A stretch of DNA of 64,000 nt from the IMG/VR virus record IMGVR_UViG_3300032213_002091, positions 1-64,000 of that record, one strand, 5' to 3'. The position numbers and the translations under genes were made by a program. The stretch is from a virus. This document shows positions 15,752-48,682 of the stretch, in pieces. Position 1 is the stretch's first letter, and each line of letters begins with the position of its first letter. The notes under the pieces are model-generated. The model made no database searches. It was given only the letters and a program-made list of their open reading frames with translations, and was not told the origin of the DNA.

Positions 15752-16804
15752 ATGATGAACCTCCAGCAAACCTATGCTGGCGTAGATCCAATTCTGACTA
15801 CGCTCGCACAAGGTTTCATGCTTCCGGCGACTAATATCGCCAACTTTATTGCCCCCGTTGTTGACACCCCGACTCGTGCTGGCCGCATTCTGCGCTTCGG
15901 CAAAGAGCAATTCGCCATCAACGACTTCCGTCGTGCATACGGAACCAACATTCCGTTCGTTCAAAGCCGTTACGATGCTGAGCCTTATGCGCTTGAGCAA
16001 GAAGTCGTGGCTTGGGAACTGCCCGAAGAAGTCATCGAGAACGCTGGTGAAGGTCCTGCTCAGGTTGACCTGCGTGCGATCGAAACTCGCAACGCCATGT
16101 CTCGCCTGATGAATGCTTACGAGTACACTGTAAGCCAGGCCGTAACCGTAACCGCTGGTTACAACCCTTACGAGCCTACCGCTGGTGCTGGTACTCAGAC
16201 CGGCCTTGGTTTCACCACCTGGGCTAACTTCCAGACCGCCTACGGTTCTGCCGCTGGTCCTTCGGCTTGGTCTTCACTGACTTCCAACCCGATCGAGGAC
16301 ATCCTGACCCTGAAGCGTTCGGTTGCCAACCAAATCGGTATCCGTCCGAACTCGATGGTTCTGGGAACTGCCGTGTTTGATCAACTGCTGACCAACCAGG
16401 CTATCCTTGAGCGCATCAAGTACACCACTGCCGATTCAATCGACACAGACCTGCTTGCTCGTTACTTCGGTCTTGAGCGTGGTCTGCGCGTTGCTGAGGG
16501 CCGTTATCTTGCCACCGATGGCACCCTGCAGCCTGTGTTCCCTTCAAACGGAATCCTGCTGTTCTACAGCCCCAATGGTCCTTCAGATAGCGTAATGCCT
16601 GCTGGCGGTGCTAATGCTGCTACCCCTGCTTTCGCTTACACCTATCAACTGACTGGCACCCCTGCTGTTCGCCCCGAGTACTACATTCGTGAGCGTCGCG
16701 TGGTTCGTGCTGAAATCACTGTTGAGCGTGTTGTTAACCTGGTGGGTCTTGGTGCCACTGGTCTTATCGGTTCTGGCGCGATGATCTCCAACATTCTTGG
16801 TTGA
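15752..16804 (+). CDS. Major capsid protein
   Basis: 350 residues of HK97-fold type by pattern: a start of the form DPILTTLAQGFMLPATNIANFIAPVV, TRAGRILRFGKEQF, then EVVAWELPEEV, a D--AIETRNAM helix and a C-terminal YYIRERRVVRAEITVERV strand. It follows the decoration gene and precedes the tail tube gene. Two adjacent in-frame ATGs exist (15752, 15755); GGAG at 15738 fits the first slightly better. No GGGTAAAA element is found directly upstream, so it probably reads through from 15097. Confidence 0.82.
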   Translation: MMNLQQTYAGVDPILTTLAQGFMLPATNIANFIAPVVDTPTRAGRILRFGKEQFAINDFRRAYGTNIPFVQSRYDAEPYALEQEVVAWELPEEVIENAGEGPAQVDLRAIETRNAMSRLMNAYEYTVSQAVTVTAGYNPYEPTAGAGTQTGLGFTTWANFQTAYGSAAGPSAWSSLTSNPIEDILTLKRSVANQIGIRPNSMVLGTAVFDQLLTNQAILERIKYTTADSIDTDLLARYFGLERGLRVAEGRYLATDGTLQPVFPSNGILLFYSPNGPSDSVMPAGGANAATPAFAYTYQLTGTPAVRPEYYIRERRVVRAEITVERVVNLVGLGATGLIGSGAMISNILG

Positions 16805-31821: not shown

Positions 31822-33555
31822 ATGCGTCCCGTAATCACGAAAGCCAGCCAGCTCGAAGAACACAGCTCGTGGAGAAAATACCAGCGAGGCATACGTGAAC
31901 TGACGCTTATGGAAGCACCACGCATGGTGATTCAGGATTTTCGGTACAAAGCTGCTCGCGATTGTTTTCTTGCTTTTTGCGACATTATGAAGCACGGCGA
32001 CCTGCAGGTTGCCCCGTTTCATGAACTGATCGGCTCAGCGTTTGAAGACCTTGCTACGCGAAGGTACAAGCGATTGATTGTTTCCTGCCCGCCACGATCG
32101 GGGAAGTCAATGCTTGCGACCATGTTCCTAGCATGGCTTCTCGGGCGAGACCAAAGGACACAACACGTCATTGCCTCTTACGGTGCGTCCCTCTCCTTCA
32201 AATTTCACCGTGAAGTAGTTCACATGATGAAGTCGAAGGAGTTCAAGCGGGTGTTCCCTGAGTGGCTTGGATTCTCACCGGACTCAAAGTATGACATGGT
32301 CGGCGGCGGTTACATTCTTGCCACTTCCGTTGGCGGGGTTCTAACCGGTTTCACCGCCGGAACAACAGATATGGACAGCCCTGGCGTTGGCGCCATGGTG
32401 ATTGACGACCCGCTCAAATCTTCGGACTCTAAACAAGCACTCGACAACCTTGAATCTTGGTGGCAAGAGCAGGCGTCCACCCGAAGAACCAACCACTACT
32501 GCCAGATGGTTATCGCAACTCGCTTCCACGAGAAAGATTTGCATGGCGTTCTGATGGAAGGCGACGGCCTTTACGACGAAGTTCACAACCCGTTTGGTTG
32601 GCGTTGGATCAATATCGCAGGACTTTGCGAAGACCCGCGCACTGACCCGCTTGAGCGGCAGATCGGTGATTCGCATTGGGGTGACAATCCGACTTTTTCT
32701 GTGCCGATGCTTGAGTCGCAGAAGAAGATTATGGGAAGCTTCAAATTTGCGGCGCTTTACCAAGGCGTTCCCGTTGCTGCGGAAGGCCAGATTGTCAAGA
32801 ACAGTTGGATTGAGGTTATCGAAGAAGAAGATTGCCCGCCACTTGATGTCGTGTGGTTAGCGGCTGACTGCGCTTTCTCCGAGAAACAAATGGCGGACGA
32901 AACCGCGATTTGCGTGGCTGGGATTAGTATGCGAGATCCGACTGTGATCTACATTCGGGAGATCGTGAAAGGTCGATGGGGTTTCCCCGACTTGGTTGAA
33001 GCCGTGAAGCAAAACTACACATATTATCAGGCAAAAGTTCTATGTATCGAAAAAGCAGCTTCGGGGCACTCTCTCATTCAAGTTCTTCGAAAAGAAGCGA
33101 GAGTTCCGATCGAAGAGATGAAGCCGTTGAAGTCGAAGACTACGAGACTTCAGGCCGTTTGTCCTTTACTGGAGAACAGCCGGGTTAAACTGGTTCAAGG
33201 GCACTGGACTGACACATTCATCAAGGAATTAACCTCATTCCCGTTTGTCCGTCACGACGACAGTACGGACGCTTTTGCTTGGGCGCTCACTTACTATGCA
33301 ATGAAAATGGACGTTGTTGATCGTAACCTGCAGGACACGATTATTCAAAACAAGCGATTCAAAGGAGATTTACTTCGCGATGGGCTCGGGGATAAGTCCG
33401 TCTTTGGGGAAATTCGCACAGGACGGCAGAAGTTGTTCTCGGGCGACACCGCAATTAACGACCCGGACTACGACGCTTCAACGATGGGTGTTGATGCTCG
33501 TTCACCTTTCGTGAGCGGAAGACGGGGTGGAAGAGGACGACTCGGCTACGAATGA
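31822..33555 (+). CDS. terL: Terminase large subunit
   Basis: 577 residues. The ATPase part has Walker A CPPRSGKS (89-96), Walker B AMVIDDP (191-197) and a coupling segment IATRFHEKDLHG (231-242). The C-terminal nuclease has an acidic strand WLAADCAFS (D349) and the HDDSTDAFAWAL block (478-489). It cuts and pumps DNA into the prohead through the portal encoded at 10628. The gene follows the putative small subunit and ends the joining/packaging unit. Confidence 0.95.
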   Translation: MRPVITKASQLEEHSSWRKYQRGIRELTLMEAPRMVIQDFRYKAARDCFLAFCDIMKHGDLQVAPFHELIGSAFEDLATRRYKRLIVSCPPRSGKSMLATMFLAWLLGRDQRTQHVIASYGASLSFKFHREVVHMMKSKEFKRVFPEWLGFSPDSKYDMVGGGYILATSVGGVLTGFTAGTTDMDSPGVGAMVIDDPLKSSDSKQALDNLESWWQEQASTRRTNHYCQMVIATRFHEKDLHGVLMEGDGLYDEVHNPFGWRWINIAGLCEDPRTDPLERQIGDSHWGDNPTFSVPMLESQKKIMGSFKFAALYQGVPVAAEGQIVKNSWIEVIEEEDCPPLDVVWLAADCAFSEKQMADETAICVAGISMRDPTVIYIREIVKGRWGFPDLVEAVKQNYTYYQAKVLCIEKAASGHSLIQVLRKEARVPIEEMKPLKSKTTRLQAVCPLLENSRVKLVQGHWTDTFIKELTSFPFVRHDDSTDAFAWALTYYAMKMDVVDRNLQDTIIQNKRFKGDLLRDGLGDKSVFGEIRTGRQKLFSGDTAINDPDYDASTMGVDARSPFVSGRRGGRGRLGYE

Positions 33556-33815: not shown

Positions 33816-33838
33816 GAGTTAAACTCGCTCCAGTGAAG
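33807..33838. terminator. Inverted repeat across convergent gene ends (possible bidirectional terminator)
   Basis: Perfect 8-bp arms CTTCACTG (33807-33814) and CAGTGAAG (33831-33838), with an inner GAGT/ACTC pair, covering both stop codons. There is no long T run on either strand. Confidence 0.4.
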
Positions 33839-34508: not shown

Positions 34509-34509
34509 C

Positions 34510-34962: not shown

Positions 34963-34993
34963 ATCTCAAAGGGGAATGACCAATGTATTTCGA

Positions 34994-35001
34994 TTTTACC
35001 C
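34994..35001 (-). promoter_or_regulatory. GGGTAAAA element on minus strand (putative phage promoter)
   Basis: Exact copy on the minus strand, 31 nt before the GTG at 34962. It lies back to back with the plus-strand copy at 35036. Confidence 0.65.
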
Positions 35002-35035
35002 ACCAGCCTGTGTTCGTTGAGAGTGGGGTAAAATT

Positions 35036-35043
35036 CACTGTAC
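35036..35043 (+). promoter_or_regulatory. GGGTAAAA element (putative phage promoter)
   Basis: Exact copy, 17 nt before the ATG at 35061. It falls inside the longest possible reading frame of phoH (from 34983), arguing for the shorter start. Confidence 0.6.
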
Positions 35044-35060
35044 GAGTTGCCCTTCCAACC

Positions 35061-35882
35061 ATGACTCGTTCCATTCGTTCTGAAGGGGGTGATAAGGATG
35101 TAATCCTGTTAAGCAGCAAAGTGTATGACCTACCCACCGACTGTATCACTCCCTTAAACATGTTAGATTCAAAGACAAAGCGCAAGGCTCGCCGTGCTGA
35201 AAATGCCCAGATGCTAGAACAATCCTACCACAAAGGAATGGATGTCATGCCTCCCAAGTTTCTGACTTGGCGGCAAGAAGATCTGTGGAATTCCCTCAAG
35301 AAAAACACTGTTACTCTCGCCCATGGCTGTGCCGGAACCGGGAAAACGCTGATTGCGTTGCATTACGGATTGTATGGTGTCGCCTCCGGCGATTTCAACA
35401 AAGTGTACTACGTTCGAAGTGACGTGGGTGTTGAATTCCAGCGCGGGCGCGGAGCGCTGCCTGGAGACCTTTCCGAGAAGATCGCACCCCTGATTGCGCC
35501 TGTTCTTGACAACTTGCCCTGCATCATGAGATCGCACGGTGCAAGTGAGTACCTGCTGAACAAGAAAATTATCGAGCCTGTTCTCCTGGAAGACATTCGG
35601 GGACGCTCACTCAACGAGGCTTTCATCATTGTTGATGAGGCTCAGAATTTCCTCCCTTCACAAATCAAAACCGTCCTGACTCGCGTCGGCAAAGATTCGA
35701 AGATCCTTCTGATTGGTGACACGAAGCAGACCGATATGGAAGTGTTTCGAAGGGAAAATGGTTTGGTCGACGCTATTCACCGACTGCGCCACCTGTCGGA
35801 AGTTGGAATCGTAGAGTTCTCAAAAGAGGACATCGTTCGTAACTCCGTTATCGCTCACATTCTCGACCGTTACGAAGACTGA
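35061..35882 (+). CDS. phoH: PhoH-like P-loop ATPase
   Basis: 273 residues from the ATG at 35061. Walker A is GCAGTGKT (89-96), Walker B FIIVDEAQN (188-196), and a GDTKQTD motif follows, all typical of PhoH-type ATPases/RNA helicase-like proteins that are common in marine and freshwater phages. Its role in phages is unsettled (phosphate-related, RNA processing). An ATG at 34983 would add 26 residues (MYFDF...) but places the GGGTAAAA element inside the gene. It diverges from the desaturase unit. Confidence 0.88.
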   Translation: MTRSIRSEGGDKDVILLSSKVYDLPTDCITPLNMLDSKTKRKARRAENAQMLEQSYHKGMDVMPPKFLTWRQEDLWNSLKKNTVTLAHGCAGTGKTLIALHYGLYGVASGDFNKVYYVRSDVGVEFQRGRGALPGDLSEKIAPLIAPVLDNLPCIMRSHGASEYLLNKKIIEPVLLEDIRGRSLNEAFIIVDEAQNFLPSQIKTVLTRVGKDSKILLIGDTKQTDMEVFRRENGLVDAIHRLRHLSEVGIVEFSKEDIVRNSVIAHILDRYED

Positions 35883-35887
35883 TTGCA

Positions 35888-37525
35888 ATGGGAAGTAAGT
35901 ATCGCTGGTTTGACTTTGCAGACTCTCGCAATCTGCAAGGGGACGACGCAACTGTGGAGCGTCTTGGGCAAAAACAAGGAATCACAGGAGCATCTTCACC
36001 TTTGCCTAGCAAACCAGCGGCTTCCTCCAAATCAGAGGGACCTACTTCTTCTGCTATCCGACAGGCAAACGAAAAGGCTGTTGGGGGGAAGCAGAAAAGA
36101 TGTTCGGTTGGAAAGAAATGTAACGCAACGTGCATCCACATCAATGACGACTGTTTAGTAGGCCTCAGCCCTTCTGTTGGGGCAGCTTTAAGCAGAGTTT
36201 CTAAGATTCTTTCGGAGCAGGTGGAAGGCGGACGAGTTACCGAAGAGACCGCCGAAGAAGTTGTAGAAAAAGTTAAAGAACTGGAACAGTCTCAGACAAA
36301 AGCATTCTCAACGTTTAAGAGTTTACTCGACTCCGGTAAAACCTCCGATGCTGAAGCAGATGGTGTTGCAAAACTTCTCGTTAGCACGATTATCACTCCC
36401 GGCCAAGACCGGAATATCGTTCGCAAAATGAGTTTTGAAGACATTGAGGCCGCCCTTAAGCCCGGCAGACTTGAAGCCCTGGAGCAAGCGTATCAGAAAT
36501 CTTTCAAATCTGACGGTAAGTTTGACCCTTCTCAGAAAGGTGGAATGGGGGACTTGATTAAGTCCACTTTCCTGAAACACGAAATTTCTGATGAGGTTGC
36601 CCAAGCCGCCTATTACATGCTTCCCTCGAAAGTCCGGTCCGCGATCGATAAAGCAGGGGCAGTAAAAGGAACCGCCGTAATGTATGGGGGTGACGACAGT
36701 AATGGAAACCCGACATTCACCGACAAACCTTCACGAGAACGTGGAATTTTCCTTGTGAAACGGTGGATGGAGCAGGGTGGCCTAGATCCATACACTGGAA
36801 GACCCATCGATATTCGCAACGCGGAGCCTGAGCATATGGTTGCGTTTGCTCACGCCCTTGCGAAAGGTGGTGGTGGTGACCAACCGCGAAACCTTTTGTG
36901 GGCGGCACCTCAACCTAACAACCAGAAAGCGGGAGCCGACGATAATTTCGTCACCTGGAAAAAGAATTTGGAAGAATATCGGAAAATGGGTAAAGACCGC
37001 TACGATAACGAAATATACAAACCCGCTTTGCAGGAGTCCGAGTCAACCAAAGGAAAGAAGGGGGCAGCACCAACCGACTTGGCAAATGCTTTGAGTTCAA
37101 CTTCTCCCGAGGAACGTGTGGCCACCACTCGTAAACTCGTTGACTCGTATGGAGATAAAGTTCGCTACCTTGTCCGCGCAGCTGGAGTTGGTTGGCAGCA
37201 CCAGGATCGAGATCTTGATCACAGACTAGGTGGAAAACCAGCCTTCATGAACAACGGGGTTCCGAAGCTACCCGGAACTAATGTTAAACCAAGTACGGCT
37301 GTTCTTATTGCACTTTCCGCAGTTGACCCAGCTAAGCGTGAATCCTTGAAAGAACGACTAGAAGAATTACGGAAAGCTCGCATTTTAACTGATTCCGAAG
37401 CAGCGGCCGTAAGAGGCGACAACTCCGCACGGCTAAGTCTACAGGGGCAAAAGAGTAAAGACTATGGTGATGACCTTGCATCCCTTCTGAACGAGTTTGT
37501 ACCCAACCTTGATTCTTTCTTGTAA
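35888..37525 (+). CDS. HNH-like nuclease protein with N-terminal Cys motif, 545 aa
   Basis: The N-terminus is Ser/Lys-rich, then carries a Cys motif (C72-x5-C78-x3-C82-x6-C89; KRCSVGKKCNATCI). Residues about 290-350 resemble an HNH nuclease: LDPYTGRPIDIRN, AEPEHMVAF (first His), PRNLLWAA (Asn) and NNQKAG, consistent with the treble-clef H-N-N pattern. A second His/Asp-rich stretch (WQHQDRDLDHRLGG) lies near 435. The middle is helical. The same Cys motif with identical spacing starts the kinase-like protein at 42687. Possibly a virion-packaged or virion-processing nuclease; function is inferred from motifs only. Confidence 0.6.
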   Translation: MGSKYRWFDFADSRNLQGDDATVERLGQKQGITGASSPLPSKPAASSKSEGPTSSAIRQANEKAVGGKQKRCSVGKKCNATCIHINDDCLVGLSPSVGAALSRVSKILSEQVEGGRVTEETAEEVVEKVKELEQSQTKAFSTFKSLLDSGKTSDAEADGVAKLLVSTIITPGQDRNIVRKMSFEDIEAALKPGRLEALEQAYQKSFKSDGKFDPSQKGGMGDLIKSTFLKHEISDEVAQAAYYMLPSKVRSAIDKAGAVKGTAVMYGGDDSNGNPTFTDKPSRERGIFLVKRWMEQGGLDPYTGRPIDIRNAEPEHMVAFAHALAKGGGGDQPRNLLWAAPQPNNQKAGADDNFVTWKKNLEEYRKMGKDRYDNEIYKPALQESESTKGKKGAAPTDLANALSSTSPEERVATTRKLVDSYGDKVRYLVRAAGVGWQHQDRDLDHRLGGKPAFMNNGVPKLPGTNVKPSTAVLIALSAVDPAKRESLKERLEELRKARILTDSEAAAVRGDNSARLSLQGQKSKDYGDDLASLLNEFVPNLDSFL

Positions 37526-37529
37526 AACC

Positions 37530-37862
37530 ATGCGCAAAGACACTCGATTTAATCGCCCCGAGCGGCAAGAAATTGAAACCAAACTGAAGCCTGGAACTCT
37601 GGCCGATGCTCAAGCACTCGGGGTATGGAATATGATGCTGCAAGCTGACGACCCGTCGGAAGTCTGCCGGTGGTATCGTTCCTATCGTGACAGCGATCAT
37701 TGCACTCTCCCGCGAGAGCAACTGCGAAATATGCGCGACACAATGGTTCAGTCGATGCGAGAAACCAACCGCCAAGATTCAAACCCCCGCAAAGAAAAGA
37801 AGAAAGGGGTTCACTACGACCACCACAACGACGGTCGCATTCGCCCAAGATCCGGAGCCTGA
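37530..37862 (+). CDS. Unknown protein, 110 aa, basic and helical
   Basis: Start set at the ATG at 37530, 4 nt after the upstream stop; the non-ATG frame from 37497 overlaps it. Rich in Arg, Asp and Gln, with a helical centre (LREQLRNMRDTMVQSM-like) and a His/Lys-rich tail (KKKGVHYDHHND). No family is recognised. Part of the accessory cassette. Confidence 0.6.
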   Translation: MRKDTRFNRPERQEIETKLKPGTLADAQALGVWNMMLQADDPSEVCRWYRSYRDSDHCTLPREQLRNMRDTMVQSMRETNRQDSNPRKEKKKGVHYDHHNDGRIRPRSGA

Positions 37863-37863
37863 C

Positions 37864-38310
37864 ATGAACGCACTCGAAGAAATTTCTCAGCACAGGGTTC
37901 CCTGTGGCCCGATGACTGTGGCTGCTTCGGGTGTCTGCAGAAGGCGGCTGCGCGACTCTTACGACCGCCTTCTTGATCGTCTGGCACAAGAAATTCACCA
38001 GGAGTACACTCCGCCGGAACTTCCAAAGGATCACAAATTTGACAAAGAAGGAAAACTTGTTCACAAGGAAGAACTTGCCAAGCGTGAGCAAACTGCGAAA
38101 ACAATGCAGAAGGGCAAAGAGAAGGCAAAGAAAGAGCGAGAGAAGAATGCTCCGCATTCTCCAGAGATTTTAGAATCCAAGAAAGAAAAGCTGCTGCAGG
38201 AAGGTATGATGAAGGCCGATGTCAAGAAGCAAGTGAAAGAGTACGAAGAGAAATTGATGGGGAATAGCAAGATGGGGCAAGATATCACGGGCAAGATCAA
38301 GAAACGTTAA
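37864..38310 (+). CDS. Lys/Glu-rich helical protein with CxnC motif, 148 aa
   Basis: Start set at the ATG at 37864, 2 nt after the previous stop. An N-terminal VPCGPMTVAASGVCRRR block has two Cys like other proteins of this cassette. From residue about 55 on it is nearly all Lys, Glu and Ala, a long charged helix (probable coiled coil) ending GKIKKR. Such composition is common in DNA-associated or packaged virion proteins. Confidence 0.6.
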   Translation: MNALEEISQHRVPCGPMTVAASGVCRRRLRDSYDRLLDRLAQEIHQEYTPPELPKDHKFDKEGKLVHKEELAKREQTAKTMQKGKEKAKKEREKNAPHSPEILESKKEKLLQEGMMKADVKKQVKEYEEKLMGNSKMGQDITGKIKKR

Positions 38311-38318
38311 GGGTAAAA
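38311..38318 (+). promoter_or_regulatory. GGGTAAAA element (putative phage promoter)
   Basis: Exact copy immediately after the TAA of the upstream gene; 23 nt before the ATG at 38342. Followed by CTTGA. Confidence 0.6.
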
Positions 38319-38341
38319 CTTGAGCAGATTACATTAGTGTT

Positions 38342-39064
38342 ATGCTCGGTTCTTTTTCAGAGGAAGCTCTCTTCAAGTATTCGGAGATGGTTTCACAAAC
38401 ACAATCTGCAGACTTCTCCGAAGGAGAGAGTTACGACTTCACACGGTGTATGCGACCTAACGGGTCTATCTACGGTACGCGAGGGCAATGCCGCAAAGGT
38501 GTAGAATCCACCAAAGGCGCAGCAGCCAAAGTAGCGGAAAGAGCAGCGAAACTGGCACGTCAGAGAAAGAATCAAACACCTGAAAGAAAAGACATGTATG
38601 ACCGACTCGCAGCGAACGCCGCCGGTCGTGCGCGTGAACCTTTTGAGAAGGGCGATACCAGGGGGAATATGACGCCCGGTGAAAGGGAAAGACGCAGAGA
38701 AGCTGACGCGTACGAGTCAAGTCTATACGGGCATAAAAATAACACTTACGGGCCAGGGGGTGTGACCAAGGATACGGGAAAGAAGAGAAAGCAAGAAGCA
38801 CTCGGCGAATTCGCCAAGGCTGGATTACCATCAAGAGTTGACGAGGCCATCGCAAGGGTTATGGAGCACCCGAAATTACAGAAATACGTTGACAAAAACG
38901 CCGCCTACGATGATATTGCAGCTACGGTACCAAAAAAAGTTCTGAAGAAAGTGTTGGGGTGGACCGACAAAGACCTCGTGGCAATTGTTAGGGGGACAGA
39001 CCCTTACGAGGGAACTATTTACGAGGACGACGAAGGGAATTACCAGTTTTACGGGGCGGCCTGA
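38342..39064 (+). CDS. Lys/Arg-rich protein with C-MRPNGSIYGTRGQC motif, 240 aa
   Basis: An acidic N-terminus leads to a CMRPNGSIYGTRGQCRKG motif near residue 38, a short module I know from small phage proteins but without an assigned function. The middle is basic and helical with low complexity. The C-terminal 60 residues (VLGWTDKDLVAIVRGTD then acidic) look globular. Part of the accessory cassette; virion or DNA-associated role inferred only from composition. Confidence 0.6.
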   Translation: MLGSFSEEALFKYSEMVSQTQSADFSEGESYDFTRCMRPNGSIYGTRGQCRKGVESTKGAAAKVAERAAKLARQRKNQTPERKDMYDRLAANAAGRAREPFEKGDTRGNMTPGERERRREADAYESSLYGHKNNTYGPGGVTKDTGKKRKQEALGEFAKAGLPSRVDEAIARVMEHPKLQKYVDKNAAYDDIAATVPKKVLKKVLGWTDKDLVAIVRGTDPYEGTIYEDDEGNYQFYGAA

Positions 39065-39066
39065 GC

Positions 39067-39074
39067 GGGTAAAA
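39067..39074 (+). promoter_or_regulatory. GGGTAAAA element (putative phage promoter)
   Basis: Exact copy 2 nt after the upstream stop codon; 27 nt before the ATG at 39102. Confidence 0.6.
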
Positions 39075-39101
39075 TAATTAAAGTTCTATAACAACTGACA
39101 A

Positions 39102-39464
39102 ATGAGCAACAGAATTGGAGGCGACTTCGACATGGACGCCGTTGAAGCATTTCGCGATGCGTACGCATCTCGTCTAATGACTCCGGAGGATCAAGACGTT
39201 GATGCGTTCACAGGTCTCCCCACTGGCGAAATCTCAAACACTTCTCCGTGGCTTGCCCACACAGGATTGTGGAAATACCCAAGCGGAAAAGGCCCCGACG
39301 ACGATCTGAAACAACCCTTCCAACCGGAATCCTACTACGAGGAGGAAGAGACCGACGAGGATGAGGAGCTCACTGAAGAAGAGATTGATACCCTTATCGA
39401 TGAAATTCTTGACGAAATTAGAACGGAGGGAGACGATGGGTCTACTGACGAAGACAACGAATAA
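39102..39464 (+). CDS. Strongly acidic unknown protein, 120 aa
   Basis: The N-terminal half looks globular (AVEAFRDAYASRLM, then FTGLPTGEIS). The C-terminal 45 residues are almost all Glu and Asp, probably a disordered acidic tail. Overlaps the next gene by 29 nt. No family is recognised. An acidic tail could interact with the basic proteins of the same cassette. Confidence 0.6.
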   Translation: MSNRIGGDFDMDAVEAFRDAYASRLMTPEDQDVDAFTGLPTGEISNTSPWLAHTGLWKYPSGKGPDDDLKQPFQPESYYEEEETDEDEELTEEEIDTLIDEILDEIRTEGDDGSTDEDNE

Positions 39465-39756
39465 TTTTAATGAGCGGCGTTTTCTGATTCGCAGCCTCGT
39501 TATCATTTTCTTGATTCAGTTTGCATCTACTGGTGCGCAGTTTGCCAACTGTTTCAAACTCTCAAACAGCTCGGCTGAAACCGAGCGCACGAACCTCGTC
39601 TGCAGCCAGGCAAATTCAAGTTTCTCCGAGACTAGCAAATTAGCGTTGACAACTCTGCTGGCTTTGTTAGTTCCCGCCGCGCCTGCAGGCGGTGCCGTGG
39701 TTGAGCAAGGGACTCGCCGTCGCAAAACTACTGAAGAGTCCGAGAATCTTTCGTAA
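39436..39756 (+). CDS. Small membrane protein, possible holin
   Basis: 106 residues from the ATG at 39436 inside the end of the acidic gene. Two hydrophobic segments (SLVIIFLIQFASTGAQF at about 20-36 and LALTTLLALLVPAAPAGG at about 72-89) flank a polar loop; the tail is basic (RRRK). Two membrane helices with a charged C-terminus fit a class II holin, but no endolysin is seen nearby, so other membrane roles are equally possible. Confidence 0.45.
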   Translation: MGLLTKTTNNFNERRFLIRSLVIIFLIQFASTGAQFANCFKLSNSSAETERTNLVCSQANSSFSETSKLALTTLLALLVPAAPAGGAVVEQGTRRRKTTEESENLS

Positions 39757-39757
39757 A

Positions 39758-39765
39758 GGGTAAAA
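39758..39765 (+). promoter_or_regulatory. GGGTAAAA element (putative phage promoter)
   Basis: Exact copy just after the upstream stop; 25 nt before the ATG at 39791. Confidence 0.6.
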
Positions 39766-39790
39766 GGAAAGTATTGCCACTACCCCCTGT

Positions 39791-40498
39791 ATGTACGGAT
39801 CCCGTCTCGACTTCTCCGACGTTTCGCTTCCTGGCGTGGGCGGTAACATTAACGCCTCAAATGCGATTAGCGTGGACAGGTTGAAAGAAATGAACGCCTC
39901 CGGCAAGAAGTGGGCTCCCGACATTACTGGCGGGATGTCTCACCACAACGAAAGTGTTCTGAAAATGAACGCTGCCAATCGCGAAAAACGTGCCAACCTC
40001 GTCAACCGGGATTACAACGAAAATTGCGATGGCAACAAAGCAATGAAAGAGATTTTCGACCGCAAAAAGTCTCGCATGGCCTCCTTCAAGGAGCTTAAGA
40101 AAGCCGAGTATGGGTTCGCCGAAGGTGATTCCCAGGACACCGAGCTGCTTGCAATCCCGCAACCTTTCGCAATGGCCGAATGCAAATGCGGAGGAACCTG
40201 CCCCGTTTGCCGCGATAAAAAGCGCAAAGATGCAGAGTACCGTGAGTGGAGCACGGAGAAGCGCAAAGAACTGAAAGAAGGGGGAGTTAAGGGGGAGTTC
40301 GCCGGGCCTGAAATGTCCTTCCCAATCTCGAGCCCTGAGGACGTTGCCGCTGCATGGTCTTCTGTAGGCAGAGGAAAAAACCCTCGTCAAATCATGGCTA
40401 ACATCATTCGTATCGCGAAGAAACACGGCTGGGAGTCGGGTTTGCCGCAGTCCGTAAAAGACCGTCTAGCCTCAGGTCAATCTGGTCTGCCGGAGTAG
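39791..40498 (+). CDS. Unknown basic protein with CxCxxxCxxC cluster, 235 aa
   Basis: The N-terminal part is polar. A Cys cluster (CKCGGTCPVC at about 131-140), probably a metal knuckle, is followed by a Lys/Arg-rich linker. The C-terminus (MSFPISSPEDVAAAWSSVGR, then IIRIAKKHGWESGLP) matches a short helical module I know from other phage head-region proteins; function not established. Part of the accessory cassette. Confidence 0.6.
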   Translation: MYGSRLDFSDVSLPGVGGNINASNAISVDRLKEMNASGKKWAPDITGGMSHHNESVLKMNAANREKRANLVNRDYNENCDGNKAMKEIFDRKKSRMASFKELKKAEYGFAEGDSQDTELLAIPQPFAMAECKCGGTCPVCRDKKRKDAEYREWSTEKRKELKEGGVKGEFAGPEMSFPISSPEDVAAAWSSVGRGKNPRQIMANIIRIAKKHGWESGLPQSVKDRLASGQSGLPE

Positions 40499-40499
40499 T

Positions 40500-40766
40500 A
40501 TGGAACCCGTAACAATCTTAAGTATTGTGGCGTCAGTCGTAACAACCGTGTCTGGAATCGGGTGGGTTCTGGAACGAAACGGTAAGCGCATTGACGACAG
40601 ATTTGGAACCATTATCCGTCATATGGAGAAGATGGAAAGGGTTCTTGACAACCTAAGAACGGACCTGCCAATCAAGTACACTCTGCGGGAAGATCACTTG
40701 CGCTTAACGGAAAAAGTCGAGGATATCCAGAAAGAACTCATCATTTGGAAGACCACGGAGTCATGA
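40500..40766 (+). CDS. Small membrane-anchored coiled-coil protein, 88 aa
   Basis: One N-terminal hydrophobic segment (VTILSIVASVVTTVSGIGWVL, residues about 4-24) is followed by a charged helix suited to a coiled coil. This layout recalls i-spanin or holin-associated proteins, but it is also common in phage proteins of unknown role. It starts 1 nt after the previous stop and ends 1 nt before the next start. Confidence 0.5.
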   Translation: MEPVTILSIVASVVTTVSGIGWVLERNGKRIDDRFGTIIRHMEKMERVLDNLRTDLPIKYTLREDHLRLTEKVEDIQKELIIWKTTES

Positions 40767-40767
40767 A

Positions 40768-41325
40768 ATGAACTTTGAAGATTATGACTGGAATCGCCTT
40801 GACGGGCTAGGTTTCAAAGAAAGTACAAAAGATGATCTCAAAGACGCCTGCTGGTCTGGCTATAAGGCGTATGGTCTCAAGAAGAAAGGTGGGAGAATGG
40901 TTCCCAACTGCGTAAAGATCGATAGTAAGCACAGTGAAGGTGACATTGCCACTGCGGAAATGACACCGAACTACCTACCGAAAGAACCAGGCGAAGGCGA
41001 CGAAAAAAACCCCCAAATGAATGAAGGAACCCCGATTCGAATGCCCCGCATGGAAGTGATCAAGAAGGCAGCCGATAAAAACGGTCAGCTTGCTATGCAC
41101 GCTTCTGTCAACGACTCCACTTATTCCGAGGTTCTTCAATCCACTGAGAACAACGGCGGAATGATCATTACCCAGCTTCGTGTTGCTCTGGAGAAGATCG
41201 AAATTATGCTCGATATGCTCGATGCAGAAGACAATCTTCCACCGTGGGCTGCAACCAAAATTGCAAACGCTGGTGTTGCCTTAGCAAGCGTTGGCGACTA
41301 CATTCGTTTCGGCGAGGAAGGTTGA
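40768..41325 (+). CDS. Unknown protein with GYKxxGxKKKGGRxVPNC motif, 185 aa
   Basis: Residues about 28-50 (CWSGYKAYGLKKKGGRMVPN then C) form a short basic Cys-flanked module that recurs in cyanophage proteins; its function is not known. The C-terminal half is helical (LRVALEKIEIMLDMLDAE, then WAATKIANAGVALASVGDYI). Coupled to the next gene by TGATG. Confidence 0.6.
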   Translation: MNFEDYDWNRLDGLGFKESTKDDLKDACWSGYKAYGLKKKGGRMVPNCVKIDSKHSEGDIATAEMTPNYLPKEPGEGDEKNPQMNEGTPIRMPRMEVIKKAADKNGQLAMHASVNDSTYSEVLQSTENNGGMIITQLRVALEKIEIMLDMLDAEDNLPPWAATKIANAGVALASVGDYIRFGEEG

Positions 41326-41633
41326 TGTGGGGTTCTTTCTTTGCGGGAGTTCTTGAGCGGTTTTACCAGGACTACGCCGAAAAAGCAAACTTAGCCTGCA
41401 ACAAACCGCAGGCGGACACTCAAGGCGGACACAGCCATGTTGTCAAAGCGTGTTACGACGGTCAGGAAAAGTTGATTCGGTTCGGTCAAGCTGGCGTCAA
41501 AGGTTCCCCTAAGAAAGAAGGTGAGTCGGAGTCTTACAAGGCTCGACGCGAAGCTTTCAAAGCGCGGCACGCAAAAAACATCGCGAAAGGACCGTCTTCC
41601 GCCGCATATTGGGCCAACAAAGTTAAGTGGTGA
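41325..41633 (+). CDS. Small basic phage protein with KARHAKNIAKG / SAAYWANKVKW domain
   Basis: 102 residues from the ATG overlapping the previous stop. It contains a CNKPQ...HVVKACYDGQEKLIRFG block, then a Lys/Arg-rich C-terminal domain ending SAAYWANKVKW. This module is widespread in phage small proteins, usually near structural genes, but has no known activity. The Cys pair again fits the pattern of the cassette. Confidence 0.65.
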   Translation: MWGSFFAGVLERFYQDYAEKANLACNKPQADTQGGHSHVVKACYDGQEKLIRFGQAGVKGSPKKEGESESYKARREAFKARHAKNIAKGPSSAAYWANKVKW

Positions 41634-41638
41634 ATCTC

Positions 41639-42142
41639 ATGCAAAGCAATTTCAATTTCCCCTCCGTTGACCACCTGATTGAAGGTGTTCACTACACTAT
41701 CGTAGACTGGGACTTCGCGGACGGCCAAGGTTGCGGAGATGGCGAGAAGATGGTTTTTGGCGTCTGTCGCAAAGTTGGTGGTGGAACGGGTGAGAAAGAC
41801 TTCGACTCCAGCAAGAAAACAAAGCAGGAAGAAGAAGGGGAAGCCGAAGCTAAGAAGCAAGGTTCCGACGTCAAAAGCAACAAACCGGTGACAGTGAACG
41901 GCAAGAAGATGGGCTGGGCCGTCAAAAACGGGAAGCCCGTGCTTGTTGAGTGGGGTTCAGTCGCTGGTGAAAAGAAAGTGGGTCCGAAACCCGTAAAACC
42001 AAGTCAATCGCCCCGCCCAAAAAACGTTCAAGCGCCCTCCCCTGCCCAACCGGCTTCAGCTTTGGCGAACCCGAACGCTAGCAGCTCGGCTCGACAGCAG
42101 GCTATCAACACAATCGGTCGCAACACCCTTCAAAACACTTGA
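41639..42142 (+). CDS. Unknown Lys/Pro-rich protein with Cys motif, 167 aa
   Basis: Start set at the ATG at 41639; GTG codons at 41627 overlap the previous stop. The N-terminal 55 residues look folded and include GQGCGDGEKMVFGVCRKVGG, a Cys-pair module similar in style to its neighbours. A short central block (VTVNGKKMGWAVKNGKPVLV) is followed by a disordered Pro/Ser/Ala tail. No function known. Confidence 0.55.
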   Translation: MQSNFNFPSVDHLIEGVHYTIVDWDFADGQGCGDGEKMVFGVCRKVGGGTGEKDFDSSKKTKQEEEGEAEAKKQGSDVKSNKPVTVNGKKMGWAVKNGKPVLVEWGSVAGEKKVGPKPVKPSQSPRPKNVQAPSPAQPASALANPNASSSARQQAINTIGRNTLQNT

Positions 42143-42144
42143 TA

Positions 42145-42152
42145 GGGTAAAA
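42145..42152 (+). promoter_or_regulatory. GGGTAAAA element (putative phage promoter)
   Basis: Exact copy 2 nt after the upstream stop; 25 nt before the ATG at 42178. Followed by a CATAAAG sequence. Confidence 0.6.
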
Positions 42153-42177
42153 GTATCCATAAAGCCTCCGTCCCGAC

Positions 42178-42690
42178 ATGCGTACAGACGCCATTTCTGA
42201 AAAGGCTATTGAACAAGCCTACTTGATTTATTCGGAGCGGGGACACCAGATCCTCGATTACTCCCACACACCGACAGATTACGCTCGCGGAACCGTTCTA
42301 GAACCCGAGAATACATCTGTGATCAACTCCCGTTTCGGCGAGCTTCTGCCGGAAAGCATTCGGGATGGCGGAGAGTATGACAGCCTTTCCGAGCAAGAAA
42401 GATCCCTCGATCTGCGCATCGACTCTCTTCAAAACGAGATGCGTACCTCGCGTATGCGTGGAAATTTCAAGGGCCTGCAAGCTCAGATGAAGGAAATGCA
42501 CAACCTAATCAAAGCCAAAGAGGCGCTTGACGCAAAGCTCGCCACGCTTGATCTTGGTTGCAAACAAATGGACGATTACGACCGGACGATGAATCAGGAC
42601 GATTCTTACTCCGAGCAAATTCAGTCCGTCGGAGCTCGCATTTCTGAACTCGAAGCCAAACTTGAAGAGTACCGGGAGAGCCGCCAGTGA
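42178..42690 (+). CDS. Coiled-coil protein, 170 aa
   Basis: The first 70 residues are mixed. Residues about 68-120 and 140-168 are charged heptad-like helices (LDLRIDSLQNEMRTSRM; ISELEAKLEEYRE), giving a probable coiled-coil dimer. Overlaps the kinase-like gene by ATGA, so the two are probably made together; it could be its partner or scaffold. No family is recognised. Confidence 0.6.
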   Translation: MRTDAISEKAIEQAYLIYSERGHQILDYSHTPTDYARGTVLEPENTSVINSRFGELLPESIRDGGEYDSLSEQERSLDLRIDSLQNEMRTSRMRGNFKGLQAQMKEMHNLIKAKEALDAKLATLDLGCKQMDDYDRTMNQDDSYSEQIQSVGARISELEAKLEEYRESRQ

Positions 42691-44660
42691 AAAAGAGATG
42701 CAGCCGCAGTAAAGCGTGTGGAGCAGGTTGTATCAGCAATTCAAAAGCGTGCCGGCTCAACTTCCCAACCACTGTAAACAACATTCTCAACAAAGCCTCG
42801 GATCAAGTCGGGGTTGTTGAACTCTACCGTGCTGCTGCTGCAGGCGGAAAGCGCGGCGGCGCGGCTCAGTTCGAGAAGATCAAGAAGGAACTTCGCCAAG
42901 AACTCGGCAGAAACATTCGCGCAGGCGAAGACGCACGGGAACTCAAGCGACGCCTCGTTGCGGCTGGCGTGATTCCAGCACGAGGTGCTGCAGCACCTAA
43001 GACAGAAGAAAACGCTGGGCAAATTTTCCAGAAAGCCGTCGCACAACCACAATCGGTTCCTTCCGCTCTGAAGCAAGAACTGAATCAAATCGCGGCTAGA
43101 GATCAGCAACAAAAAGATAACAAACCCGACTCCTTGTACGGAGCATGGGATACGAATCTTCTAGTTAGGTTCCGGAAAGATCTCTCGAACCAAAAATTTG
43201 AGGATAGGGAGATCATTAAGCTAGCTAAAAATAGAGTAGACCGGGAGTTAGCTCGCAGAGAGGAAAAACCGAGTGAGAAACCTCCGGTAGTTCTCGCAGC
43301 GCGGCAACTTGATAAGTCACCCGGCGCTCGAACAAGAACGGTCCCCCCGCCAAGGGGAATAACGAATGGCGAATCCGATAACTGGCAATGGACCGGCGTG
43401 ACTGACGTATTCGACGATATTTCACGCATAATGAGGGGAGTATCTCCGCGACACATTTCCATGGTTGGTGACGAAAGTGCGCGAGTCAAGAAATCACAAA
43501 TCGCGCAACTTCAATCCGTGTTGGGTCTCGGAGCTCAAACGAGGAAAGAAGTTGGCCGTGACCTGGAAGGGCTTCTCGATGAGGCAAGAAATCTGAAAGG
43601 CAGACTCATTAGTCAGCAGAAAAGGTTCAAAGGTAGTGACCAGGAGAGATTGGTTTTACTCGATCGTCTCAAGAAAGTTCGAGAAGCGATTCAAGGTCCT
43701 GCCACCAAAGCAACCGGAAACGTTCGCTACGCTCGTGAAGATGCCCGCGACCATGACGGTGATATGCTGAGCAAAGGAATTTCTCGTGAGCTTGGAAACA
43801 AGTCGTATCGCTGGGAAGATTCTTACGGCTCCGGCTCAACTCTTCTCGGAAGAGGTGCCTATGGAACTGTTCTTCGTGAACCAAACAAGGGTAACGCCAT
43901 CAAGAGAGGCGAAGTTGGCAAAATTGAGGCCGATCTGATTGATCGCCTTGGTAAAGTTGATCTTGGTCCGAAACTTCTTGCTGCACAACTTGACGGTGAT
44001 TCTCAGTATAACCCTGGAACGAAGATCGGTCGCGTGGCGATGAGCGTGGTTGCAGGAAGTCCGATCGGCTCAAAAGCGCCCGACAAAGAAATTGGCGGTG
44101 TCAAAGTCGCTGATGCGTATTGGATTGCTCGAGCAAATCTTCACAGAATGGGTATCGCTCACAACGATATGCACATTGATAACGTCCTTGTTGATCGCAA
44201 AGGTAAAGCCCGTTTCGTTGACATGGGCCTCGCTCAGGATTCACCGAAGGCAGCTTTAGCTGAGGCAATGGGTGTTTTTCTTCCACCGAGGGGATCTACG
44301 GCAGATAGAGGACGTGGTGCTGCAGGGCAAGGGGACTGGCAAGTTCGCAGATGGAAGGGAACGGCAGGCGATCTGTTGTCAATATATGAGAAGGGAACTA
44401 AAAATGGTGGTACCCCGCTGGCAACAGAGAGAGCCCGGAAAGATCTAGAGACAAAAGCCCCCATCCTTGCTAAAGTTCGAGAAAACAAAAACGAAGTGCA
44501 GTTTGCGATGCTTCGAGATGGTTTCTCCAAAGACGACATCGCCACCGTGATGGACCACGGGATTCGCTCGCCGATGGAGACTTACGAGCAGGGCGTCTGG
44601 GCTAAAATAAGCAACGAACAGGCACAAAAATACATCTCGATTCTTTACGACGGAGTTTGA
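42687..44660 (+). CDS. Protein-kinase-like protein with N-terminal Cys motif, 657 aa
   Basis: The N-terminus has C5-x5-C11-x3-C15-x6-C22, identical in spacing to the HNH-like protein at 35888. A long helical, Ala/Lys/Arg-rich middle follows (about 30-340). Residues about 385-520 resemble a protein kinase fold: glycine loop LGRGAYGTV (387-395), AIK with K406, catalytic loop HNDMHIDNVLVD (492-503, H-D-H-N like RIO/ABC1-type kinases) and VDMGLA (D512) in place of DFG. This suggests ATP-dependent phosphorylation of host or virion proteins. Activity is inferred from motifs; the Asp of the catalytic loop and the metal Asp are present. Confidence 0.7.
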   Translation: MKKRCSRSKACGAGCISNSKACRLNFPTTVNNILNKASDQVGVVELYRAAAAGGKRGGAAQFEKIKKELRQELGRNIRAGEDARELKRRLVAAGVIPARGAAAPKTEENAGQIFQKAVAQPQSVPSALKQELNQIAARDQQQKDNKPDSLYGAWDTNLLVRFRKDLSNQKFEDREIIKLAKNRVDRELARREEKPSEKPPVVLAARQLDKSPGARTRTVPPPRGITNGESDNWQWTGVTDVFDDISRIMRGVSPRHISMVGDESARVKKSQIAQLQSVLGLGAQTRKEVGRDLEGLLDEARNLKGRLISQQKRFKGSDQERLVLLDRLKKVREAIQGPATKATGNVRYAREDARDHDGDMLSKGISRELGNKSYRWEDSYGSGSTLLGRGAYGTVLREPNKGNAIKRGEVGKIEADLIDRLGKVDLGPKLLAAQLDGDSQYNPGTKIGRVAMSVVAGSPIGSKAPDKEIGGVKVADAYWIARANLHRMGIAHNDMHIDNVLVDRKGKARFVDMGLAQDSPKAALAEAMGVFLPPRGSTADRGRGAAGQGDWQVRRWKGTAGDLLSIYEKGTKNGGTPLATERARKDLETKAPILAKVRENKNEVQFAMLRDGFSKDDIATVMDHGIRSPMETYEQGVWAKISNEQAQKYISILYDGV

Positions 44661-44869: not shown

Positions 44870-47800
44870 ATGTCTGCTGTAAAAATCGTTTTCAAGCGTT
44901 CGAGCATTCCGGGAAAGCGCCCGACGAGCTCAAACCTTGAGGTTGGTGAGATTGGCCTAAATACGAACTCAAACGATCCCGGTCTATTCTTTGAGGTTAA
45001 CAACGACACTGTTGTTAAAGTAGGTCCAACATCGGTTCTTCCGCAGGCTCCGACAAGTTTACCCTCGAAAGGTGAACTCTGGTTGAATACGCAAGACGGA
45101 ACCCTGAATTGCGGTGTCTTCAAAGATTTCACCTCTCAATGGCAAACGATTGCAGCACCCTACCTCGGCGGTGGTGGATATGTTGTGTTCGTTGCCCCCG
45201 AATTTCTTGGCTCCACGGATTCAATTCTGAATGATGGCCAAGCGTTGCCGTTTCAGACTCTGACACGCGCAATCCTGGAGCTAAGCAAAATTACAATCAA
45301 TGCAATCTTGACGGGTGCGACTCCCGCAAGCGAGAATAGCAAATATACGATTTACCTCGCCCCTTCTCGCGTCACTGCGAACAATGGCCCTGGCGCAAGT
45401 CTTGCCGAGTTCAACGTTAACTTCTCGTCAGATCCGTTTGCTCAGGTTACAACAACTCAGCTAACTCAGTTCAACAGTCCTACCGGGGGAATCATCGTTC
45501 CTCGGGGAATTTCGATTGTTGGCCTTGACCTCAAGAAGTGCATCTTGAGCCCAACATACGTCCCCAATTACAAGAACCCTGCGTACCCCGCCGGAGTCGA
45601 TGGCGACTTTGACCAACCGATTACATCAGTCCTGAAGTGGACTGGTAACACTTACCTCAACAACTACTCCATTCTTGACAAAGTTCAGTCACGGGATGTG
45701 TATAAAATTGAGTCCTCAACAAACGGGGAAGCAGTGTTTTACTCGACTCGACCACACGGTCTAGAGGTGAACGATCTTGTTGAGGTCGAGTTCGCAGCCA
45801 GTGTGAATCAAATCACAGGAACTTTCTTAAACGGCAAATACTACGCCTACCCGATTGATACTTTCTCTTTCTACTTGCGCACTGCGCCGGAAGCTCTATA
45901 CGTAAAATACTCCGCCCTTCCGACGATTTCAACGTCCGACTCGATAATTCTTTACGTCACAAATACACTCAAGTCAGCCCACCGCCTTCGCGGTAGCTTG
46001 AACACGACTCTGAGCGAGTTGGCAGATTATTACACCAAAGTTCAAAGGGCTTTCCCCGACTTCTTTGGCGGACAGGTAACTAACGGAGCTCTCCTGGTAA
46101 GTCAGGCTGAGTTCGTTATCGTGGCACCTACGAATTCCGACTACCCAAACAACCGAGCTGCTAACAGCACCAGCAACTCCTCAGCTTACGCGAACAGCGT
46201 AAACGTTCGTTCCGATTACGGCATGTGCTGGGGCGAGGTAATTGGTAACCAGATTCAAGGATTCAGGTCTCTCATCGCAAACGAATGCACTTGCGTTTCA
46301 TTGCAGAACGACCCGGCGGCGTACGAAATTTACACGACTCTGCTCAACCCGATCACAAACATTTCGGAACAAAAGTGGTGGTCTCTCGCAAGAGCAACGT
46401 ACCTTTCACTTCCGCTGAACGAGCGTCCTTCAACAATCGATGCGGTTTCAGTAGAGGCTCAACTCGACCTTCTCAACAGAACTCAGATTAAGAACATTCG
46501 TTACTACTACCAAAATCAAGTTACGGAAAGCAACGAAAGTATTGGCATTGTTAACACAGAGGTGGACTTCCGTCACTTCGGGTTTAGAATTCGAGATGGT
46601 GCATACGGTCAACTTCAGTCGATTTACACGATTGGTTGCGCAGTGGGCACGTGGGCTTTGAACGGAGGTTTCGTTTCCCTCACAAACAGCACGAGCAACT
46701 TCGGGTCAGTTGCGATCAAATCTGAAGGATTCTTCGGAATCAACACTGTTGGTGGTGCAGATGCCAACCAAACCGGTTTTCTGTTCGAGGGTATTCAACG
46801 ACCTCTTGCGCTCACAGAGTCTCAAGTTGTGTCGGACCAGAACAAACAAATTCTTTCTCTTGGGGCGAAAGTAGTCTCGGTCACTATTGATTCGGTGCTG
46901 GATCCGGGCATTCAATTGATTGAGCTCAGTTCAGAGTTTTCTCCTTGCTATCTTCTGCCGTACTCACTTAACCCTGGAAGTGCCGTATGGGTGAGAAACT
47001 CGACCAACGGGCAAACTTATCGAGGTTTCTTTGCAACAGATGGCGGACCAACGGTAGTTCCAACCCCTGGATCTTGCGGCCTCACTTCAACCCTAAGGTT
47101 GAGAGCATCCGACAGCAGCATTCCTTTGGCGGCGGCTGTAACTGAGCTGGAAGTCCCCTATATTCGTCGATTTGTTGATCCCCGTCCGGAGTTTGACCGG
47201 GCCTATAGTTTCAAAGTGTCGAACACATATCCAACCGTTATTCCTCCCCAGGTAGGTTCAGTTCTTCGCCTCAACCAAACCAACCAAGCGATCAACCCTG
47301 GAACTCTTCGCCCCAACGTTCAATTCGACCCTGGCGTGTTGGGGGGGTGGGGGAGAATCTTCACCGTAGACCACGTATTTACCGCAGCTTTGGCGGAGTC
47401 GCCGCAATTCAACTACGTTATCGGAGACAGCAACGAGAACGTAAACTACTACTTCACGGCCACCGTTTCTGACTACGCCAGACCCTGGAAGCAGGAGTTT
47501 GATAACTCTACCGGTACGATTGTCACTTACCAAGAGAGAAACTGGTACACGGCGGAAAATAACATTTGGGACAATCTTTACTACGGAAGTGCGAACAACT
47601 TCCGACCAAGCGCAGGTCCGTTGAAACTTGCCCCCACCGAATCTTGCTCACCGTTTGTGGATACGAGCGTTACTGAACGACAGGAGCGAATCTCCACAAC
47701 TTACCAAGGAAGTTATGCGCCAGATGTGTACATCGAAGGAGATGTGTACTCGGAGACGGACACCTATTTCCGAGGGTCAACCTACCCCTACCCTTCCTAC

Positions 47801-48682
47801 AGTGTTCAATCTTACTTTGACGGAGATGATGGTTCTCCCAGCCTAGGAATCTGTCTAAGCGACATTCCTAATGGATCTACAACTCAAACTAGCGGCGGGC
47901 TAACTGTTATTCAGACTTCTCTATCAGCTGGGGCCACAACAAGATATCGGCCTGCGGTTGTTCAGTTTTCAGTGGCAAATGCCTCGGTTATCCCGAACCC
48001 TGAGGAAGAAGTTTCGATCATCCAACTTGTTGGAGGGGGCAATTTTGAGTACATGCAGGTGATTGACGTTTCCGGGTCAACCTTGAAAGCGATTCGCCTA
48101 AATCGAACCAACAGTTACTACCCGAACCCTTCTGCGGAGAATCAGAATTGGCCCTCAGGCACATCTGTGATTGTTTGCGAAACAAACAAAACACCGAGCC
48201 CAGAAATTTACGACCCGATCTGGAGCAACACGAAGCAAGCTGTTCTTCGTTTCTTCGAGATCATGGGTTACTCGAACGAGGAGATTCTTCCGTATCTTGG
48301 TCCAATGTACTGGGGCGACAGAACTCTGGCAATTACGTCCATTCCGTTGACCCCCGCCCAAGGGTACGCTCTGGTTACCGAGCGCTGGCCACTCGAGTTC
48401 AACAGTCCTTCAACGATTATTGCCAACACTCATACTTGGGCCTTCACCGGATACTTAAACTACTCCCGTGGCCTACCCAAGTTCCAGAATAACGAGTTGT
48501 CCAGAAAACTTTCCGCCGACTACCAGTCGACTGTTCTGTGGGGCGGTAAAGTTACGATCACTGGAGTAAGCAACCGAGGGGAAATCGTTCTGTTTGGCCC
48601 GCAACGTCAGGCTTTGACGGGAAGGTTCTACGAAGATGTCAACCCCCTGGTCAATCCCGCGAACCAACAACTTTCTCAGTGA
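44870..48682 (+). CDS. Large tail fibre/baseplate-associated protein, 1270 aa
   Basis: The N-terminal module (LEVGEIGLNTNS, then PGLFFEVNND and VKVGPTSV, GELWLNTQDG) is a fibre attachment pattern shared with the protein at 49175. Residues about 105-240 (LNDGQALPFQTLTRAI, then VPRGISIVGLDLKKC) look like the start of a right-handed beta-helix. A THE-HGLEVND--EVEF module near 295 resembles the insertion in the sheath. The rest is beta-rich and unassigned. Probably a long tail fibre or fibre network protein. Confidence 0.7.
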   Translation: MSAVKIVFKRSSIPGKRPTSSNLEVGEIGLNTNSNDPGLFFEVNNDTVVKVGPTSVLPQAPTSLPSKGELWLNTQDGTLNCGVFKDFTSQWQTIAAPYLGGGGYVVFVAPEFLGSTDSILNDGQALPFQTLTRAILELSKITINAILTGATPASENSKYTIYLAPSRVTANNGPGASLAEFNVNFSSDPFAQVTTTQLTQFNSPTGGIIVPRGISIVGLDLKKCILSPTYVPNYKNPAYPAGVDGDFDQPITSVLKWTGNTYLNNYSILDKVQSRDVYKIESSTNGEAVFYSTRPHGLEVNDLVEVEFAASVNQITGTFLNGKYYAYPIDTFSFYLRTAPEALYVKYSALPTISTSDSIILYVTNTLKSAHRLRGSLNTTLSELADYYTKVQRAFPDFFGGQVTNGALLVSQAEFVIVAPTNSDYPNNRAANSTSNSSAYANSVNVRSDYGMCWGEVIGNQIQGFRSLIANECTCVSLQNDPAAYEIYTTLLNPITNISEQKWWSLARATYLSLPLNERPSTIDAVSVEAQLDLLNRTQIKNIRYYYQNQVTESNESIGIVNTEVDFRHFGFRIRDGAYGQLQSIYTIGCAVGTWALNGGFVSLTNSTSNFGSVAIKSEGFFGINTVGGADANQTGFLFEGIQRPLALTESQVVSDQNKQILSLGAKVVSVTIDSVLDPGIQLIELSSEFSPCYLLPYSLNPGSAVWVRNSTNGQTYRGFFATDGGPTVVPTPGSCGLTSTLRLRASDSSIPLAAAVTELEVPYIRRFVDPRPEFDRAYSFKVSNTYPTVIPPQVGSVLRLNQTNQAINPGTLRPNVQFDPGVLGGWGRIFTVDHVFTAALAESPQFNYVIGDSNENVNYYFTATVSDYARPWKQEFDNSTGTIVTYQERNWYTAENNIWDNLYYGSANNFRPSAGPLKLAPTESCSPFVDTSVTERQERISTTYQGSYAPDVYIEGDVYSETDTYFRGSTYPYPSYSVQSYFDGDDGSPSLGICLSDIPNGSTTQTSGGLTVIQTSLSAGATTRYRPAVVQFSVANASVIPNPEEEVSIIQLVGGGNFEYMQVIDVSGSTLKAIRLNRTNSYYPNPSAENQNWPSGTSVIVCETNKTPSPEIYDPIWSNTKQAVLRFFEIMGYSNEEILPYLGPMYWGDRTLAITSIPLTPAQGYALVTERWPLEFNSPSTIIANTHTWAFTGYLNYSRGLPKFQNNELSRKLSADYQSTVLWGGKVTITGVSNRGEIVLFGPQRQALTGRFYEDVNPLVNPANQQLSQ

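Follow-up and report, generated by a model that had tools for sequence, protein, structure and literature searches.

A 64-kb stretch of DNA from a cyanomyovirus contig (positions 1 to 64,000 of the 89-kb IMG/VR virus record IMGVR_UViG_3300032213_002091; hereafter the window) encodes two otherwise unrelated proteins, an HNH-nuclease-like protein starting at position 35888 and a kinase-like protein starting at position 42687, which carry the same small four-cysteine module. This module is shared with many other proteins, is spread over unrelated domains, is nearly restricted to viruses in its strict form and is linked to the head lineage of S-CBWM1, a Synechococcus myovirus in culture. All three kinases reported in S-CBWM1 virions carry the module, and for this reason its most likely role is to direct enzymes into virus particles. 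We consider it probable that it serves S-CBWM1-like cyanophages and their relatives as an N-terminal capsid-targeting tag for injected enzymes.

The four-cysteine tag in two unrelated proteins

The two proteins, their tag cores and their enzyme-like regions are located in the window as follows.

35888..37525, plus strand: open reading frame (ORF) of the tagged HNH-nuclease-like protein, 545 aa; phrog_3561, unknown function
36101..36154, plus strand: four-cysteine tag core of the HNH-like protein, KQKRCSVGKKCNATCIHINDDC; Cys 72/78/82/89, residues 72-89
36785..36919, plus strand: HNH-like region; D300, E315-H316 and N335 invariant, N344 nearly invariant
42687..44660, plus strand: tagged kinase-like protein, 657 aa; its GTG start overlaps the stop of the preceding gene
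42699..42752, plus strand: four-cysteine tag core of the kinase-like protein, MKKRCSRSKACGAGCISNSKAC; Cys 5/11/15/22, residues 5-22
43839..44261, plus strand: kinase-like domain; K406, E414, H492-x-D494 and D512 invariant, N499 nearly invariant

In both proteins the tag core reads C-x5-C-x3-C-x6-C with exactly equal spacing, a claim of an earlier note on this DNA that ORF translations, a tag profile and residue shuffling all confirmed. The string given there as common to both tags, KRCS-x-K-C-A-x-CI, had dropped positions and is correctly KRCS-x2-K-x-C-x-A-x-C-I. The note had also placed both tags near the N-terminus; the tag starts the kinase-like protein (Cys 5-22), but in the HNH-like protein it follows an N-terminal extension of about 70 residues, and HNH family members in general have it tens of residues from the protein start. 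The exact spacing occurs in only 2 of the 418 window ORFs (six frames, at least 60 aa), namely these two. When the residues of the window ORFs were shuffled, a mean of 0.037 spacing matches was obtained, and none of 1000 trials reached two matches. A profile made with the tags of 37 other proteins matched the two window proteins with E = 5.5e-14 and 7.5e-11, and with the profile built without these two proteins no further window ORF fell below E 0.1. Pure chance as the source of the shared spacing was set aside on the strength of the shuffling test and this independent profile.

Outside the tag the two proteins are unrelated, as had been noted, one being kinase-like and the other HNH-like. Among 24 tagged homologues of the kinase-like protein, the catalytic Lys, Glu, HxD and Asp residues of the kinase fold are invariant and the Asn nearly so; in the tags of the same 24 proteins, the four Cys, K9 and G12 are invariant. 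Pfam models for protein kinases (Pkinase), APH, ABC1 or RIO match most members of the family; the window protein alone scores below the Pfam gathering threshold, and its structural model matches kinase structures in PDB. The HNH family profile matches Cas9 HNH domains (E 1.8e-7), and Pfam HNH_4 is found in 4 of 22 family members; the window protein alone gave no Pfam HNH match, and a Foldseek search with its model returned no credible match. From these profile matches we regard it as a predicted HNH nuclease. The four Cys, Gly75 and Lys76 are invariant in the tags of 20 tagged HNH homologues, but the search pattern fixed these positions, so the Gly-Lys and Cys conservation among tagged proteins is biased. 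Separately, S-CREM2 gp12 (L184 7704-10313), a virion protein annotated as Cas9, shows a weak match to the HNH family (E 4e-4), located in its HNH region; instead of a Cas9 it may be HNH cargo.

The AlphaFold models of both proteins have helices after the tag, in agreement with the helical part described earlier, but model confidence is low over the tag. Comparison of the tag profile with PDB found no relative by sequence. As to a possible zinc site, the four Cys are invariant, but the fold around them is poorly predicted.

The tag core is strongly basic, with a mean net charge of +4.9 over 22 residues and of +4.1 in the first 11. The four Cys and this charge would suit a basic zinc knuckle that contacts nucleic acid or the host RNA polymerase and so brings the enzymes to their substrate in the infected cell, any presence in virions being a by-product of binding to packaged DNA; that one partner is a predicted nuclease fits as well. 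We find this explanation unlikely, since for other partners, among them kinases, ADP-ribosyltransferases and alpha/beta hydrolases, DNA is not a necessary target, and since homologous virion kinases of T4-like cyanophages have at the tag position a peptide resembling the capsid-targeting sequence (CTS) of phage T4. DNA binding could, on the other hand, be the packaging mechanism of the tag.

Distribution of the tag over viruses and cargo

The earlier note had called for a search for the spacing in phage proteins and a tabulation of the attached domains. This turned up many unrelated enzymes, and most of the phages concerned have the same head genes. The collection holds about 100 tagged phage proteins, of which 42 belong to the kinase family and 24 to the HNH family, the others falling into many small families that include ADP-ribosyltransferase, zeta-toxin-like, PGDYG and LPD1/zincin-like domains. 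The tag is borne by six or more unrelated types of cargo and lies in the first third of the ORF in 93% of cases. When 50,697 phage records were compared with the consensus tag, the only matches were two entries for S-CBWM1 and a weak one in Aphanizomenon phage CL131. Among 41 tagged virus records, which were chosen because of a tag match, 29 hold at least two tags (with maxima of 8 in a 47-kb contig and 10 in a 154-kb contig), and 26 encode an S-CBWM1-type portal or capsid protein, many of the remainder being fragments.

Tagged genes also differ between close relatives. In a near relative of the window (G033, L180), whose HNH protein is 93% identical, an extra tagged gene lies cleanly between conserved flanks, where the window has 17 bp. 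One whole tagged gene has thus been gained by the relative or lost by the window.

39737..39755, plus strand: insertion site of the extra tagged gene of the relative (693 bp, 231 aa), which is absent in the window

Several diverged tags of the form CKVGKQCGDICIPKxxxC occur within very long proteins (L188/L195, CL131 gp048; L190, L191). In CL131, the gp048 gene is a neighbour of the tape measure gene, and alpha/beta-hydrolase-like stretches lie between its tags.

The strict tag DNA pattern was found in 74 stretches of viral contigs, compared with 6 in 257 Gb of cellular genomes (84,980 species, with cyanobacteria covered for the K-S-C-G form only). One of 299 Pseudomonadota genomes matched the tag profile at E<=1e-4, and this match was weak and partial; plasmids gave no tag match. 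A similar C-x5-C-x3-C-x6-C core ends small bacterial proteins, for example CCKVCRKGKACGNSCISRSYTCHQPPGCACDG, and no NCBIfam model matched these proteins. The tag might accordingly be a generic small cysteine module akin to that of small secreted proteins of bacteria, serving stability or redox sensing without any addressing role. We consider this very improbable. The bacterial core is C-terminal, in short cellular proteins with additional Cys, and mostly K-A/P-C-G, whereas the phage tag is near the N-terminus, mostly K-S-C-G, and repeated on unrelated proteins. The earlier note would have given up its proposal if the motif were a generic zinc site of non-phage proteins; in this respect the near absence of the strict form from cellular genomes upholds the proposal, while the similar bacterial core speaks against it. 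A generic bacterial motif was set aside on the basis of the cellular genome scans.

Virion evidence and a CTS-like start in place of the tag

Exactly five S-CBWM1 proteins are tagged: gp106, gp113, gp161, gp162 and gp174. Three of these are kinases, RIO-like (gp113), ChoK-like (gp161) and APH-like (gp162). The kinases reported in S-CBWM1 virions are APH, ChoK and Rio2 (PMC10665884); as they are among the five tagged proteins, all three are tagged. By contrast, S-CBWM1 gp173, which belongs to the same kinase family, is untagged and is not among the virion kinases named for S-CBWM1. A fourth tagged protein, gp174, is annotated as a virion structural protein, adjoins the capsid gene and is homologous to the window HNH-like protein (45% identity over 99%). 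Tagged proteins are thus reported, according to second-hand data, in S-CBWM1 virions, and the proposal of the earlier note, that a tag shared by different effectors marks virion cargo, is supported by a tagged set that holds both the reported virion kinases and a virion structural protein.

For two of the kinases, gp113 and gp161 (S-CBWM1, MG450654), the tag is situated at the annotated start or upstream of it. The annotated starts, at 70464 and 117887 respectively, remove all or part of the tag, and upstream ATGs at 70398 and 117830 restore it. In gp113, the ATG just before the tag is preceded by a purine-rich stretch resembling a ribosome-binding site.

The annotation and position of gp174, the location of the window genes within the late cluster, flanked by terminase/PhoH and tail fibre, and one tag-like copy after a portal domain (L110) would also be expected if the two proteins were structural or morphogenetic, in tail or head assembly, with the tag as an assembly-contact domain. 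This, too, seems to us highly unlikely: the kinase catalytic residues are invariant and the HNH residues conserved, and tagged genes have been gained, lost and expanded, which is unusual for structural parts.

The tag was not found in S-CREM2, S-CRM01, S-TIM5 or S-B68, though all hold kinase or HNH homologues. The kinases of S-CREM2 and S-CRM01, both reported in virions, instead begin with a T4-CTS-like peptide. Such starts, described by the pattern M-x(1-5)-[FYL]-x2-F-[LIMN]-x-[EQ], occur in S-CREM2, S-CRM01 and S-B68, and none was found in S-CBWM1 or the window. A genome-wide scan of S-CREM2 returned four ORFs (SAM hydrolase, gp13, kinase and NMNAT-like), all of which are in its virion proteome as determined by mass spectrometry; since the pattern was written after gp13 and gp14 had been seen, only the other two of the four are independent. 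We lean slightly towards the view that a kinase passing from one head lineage to another has its four-cysteine tag exchanged for a CTS. The tag would then be a second capsid-addressing code, an interchangeable cassette by which any fused enzyme is loaded into S-CBWM1-type heads and injected.

Several points weigh against a targeting role. The virion evidence concerns S-CBWM1 and not the window virus and is second hand, and its source warns that highly expressed proteins can co-purify. NMNAT is also reported in S-CBWM1 virions, yet S-CBWM1 gp39 is untagged. S-TIM5, which has a distantly homologous portal and capsid protein, encodes an untagged HNH homologue annotated as a virion protein. To these are added the tag's lack of a confidently predicted fold or a solved relative by sequence, and the bacterial proteins ending in a similar core.

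We nevertheless favor capsid targeting, and propose the following course. Host-takeover enzymes of the late cluster (kinases, HNH nucleases, ADP-ribosyltransferases and others) bear the tag, which probably has a metal ion at the centre of its fold. While the head is being assembled, the tag would bind a head component, which may be the portal, the scaffold or the capsid interior; the tagged enzymes would be enclosed with the DNA and would then enter the host at infection. In this scheme we infer that the tag causes packaging, that it binds metal, that it has a receptor and that its cargo is ejected into the host.

Gene context, known systems and meaning

The window encodes tail sheath, portal, baseplate and tail fibre, and the following genes frame the comparison with S-CBWM1.

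10628..12025, plus strand: portal protein, 65% identical to S-CBWM1
15752..16804, plus strand: major capsid protein, 68% identical to S-CBWM1
31822..33555, plus strand: terminase large subunit, 58% identical to S-CBWM1
34983..35882, plus strand: PhoH-like gene, directly 5' of the tagged HNH gene
44870..48682, plus strand: tail fibre gene, directly 3' of the tagged kinase gene

Window and S-CBWM1 have in common the order terminase, PhoH, tagged HNH-like gene, several small genes, tagged kinase gene and tail genes, the first three being gp103 (terL), gp105 (phoH) and gp106 (tagged) in S-CBWM1. Between terminase and PhoH, the window holds on the minus strand (33819-34962) a fatty-acid-desaturase gene and a second small gene, and the relative G022 has similar genes at the same place. 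The major capsid protein gene is in at least two separated pieces in relatives G004, G006, G014, G016, G017, G020, G021, G027 and G031, which suggests introns or insertions. A second short module, ACWSGYKAYGLKKKGGRMVPNC, is encoded at 40768-41325 of the window and matches at least six PHROG families at differing positions; it may be one more add-on that phage proteins share. A further repeated Cys module, FTRCMRPNGSIYGTRGQCRKG (window 38342-39064; L179, L181, L182), is found in related viruses, where several small genes close to tagged ones contain it.

The closest functional parallel is the T4 CTS, a conserved short N-terminal element that diverse internal, injected proteins have in common (PMC3012670), alongside T4 Alt, a packaged ADP-ribosyltransferase (PMC5512222). 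The tag is likewise a short N-terminal element on otherwise unrelated cargo (kinases, HNH, ADP-ribosyltransferase, zeta-toxin-like and others), and homologous kinases of T4-like cyanophages begin CTS-like. The four-cysteine module is, however, unrelated in sequence to M-x-F-x-x-F-[LI]-x-E; by analogy, it would work like the T4 CTS without being a CTS by sequence. The virion-associated kinases of S-CBWM1, S-CRM01 and S-CREM2 belong to the same family, those of S-CBWM1 carrying the tag and those of the other two lacking it. With the polyvalent proteins (Iyer et al. 2017, PMC5512222) and MuF-linked effectors, the tagged proteins have in common a repertoire of injected-effector domains and a late gene neighbourhood. 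Long proteins with several distant versions of the tag, for example CL131 gp048 and its several hydrolase-like stretches, resemble polyvalent proteins further; the window proteins differ from these in combining the tag with one recognisable enzyme domain each, not with two or more effector domains. A MuF domain was sought in both window proteins and gave no match, and MuF linkage of tagged proteins was set aside. We found no description of a shared four-cysteine tag in the literature searched.

If capsid targeting is correct, the tag would make it possible to predict, with nothing but sequence, which effectors a large group of uncultured cyanophages injects, and would give functional meaning to many hypothetical genes. 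It may also provide a tool for loading proteins into phage heads. How phages other than T4 select their internal proteins would then become directly testable in cultured S-CBWM1.

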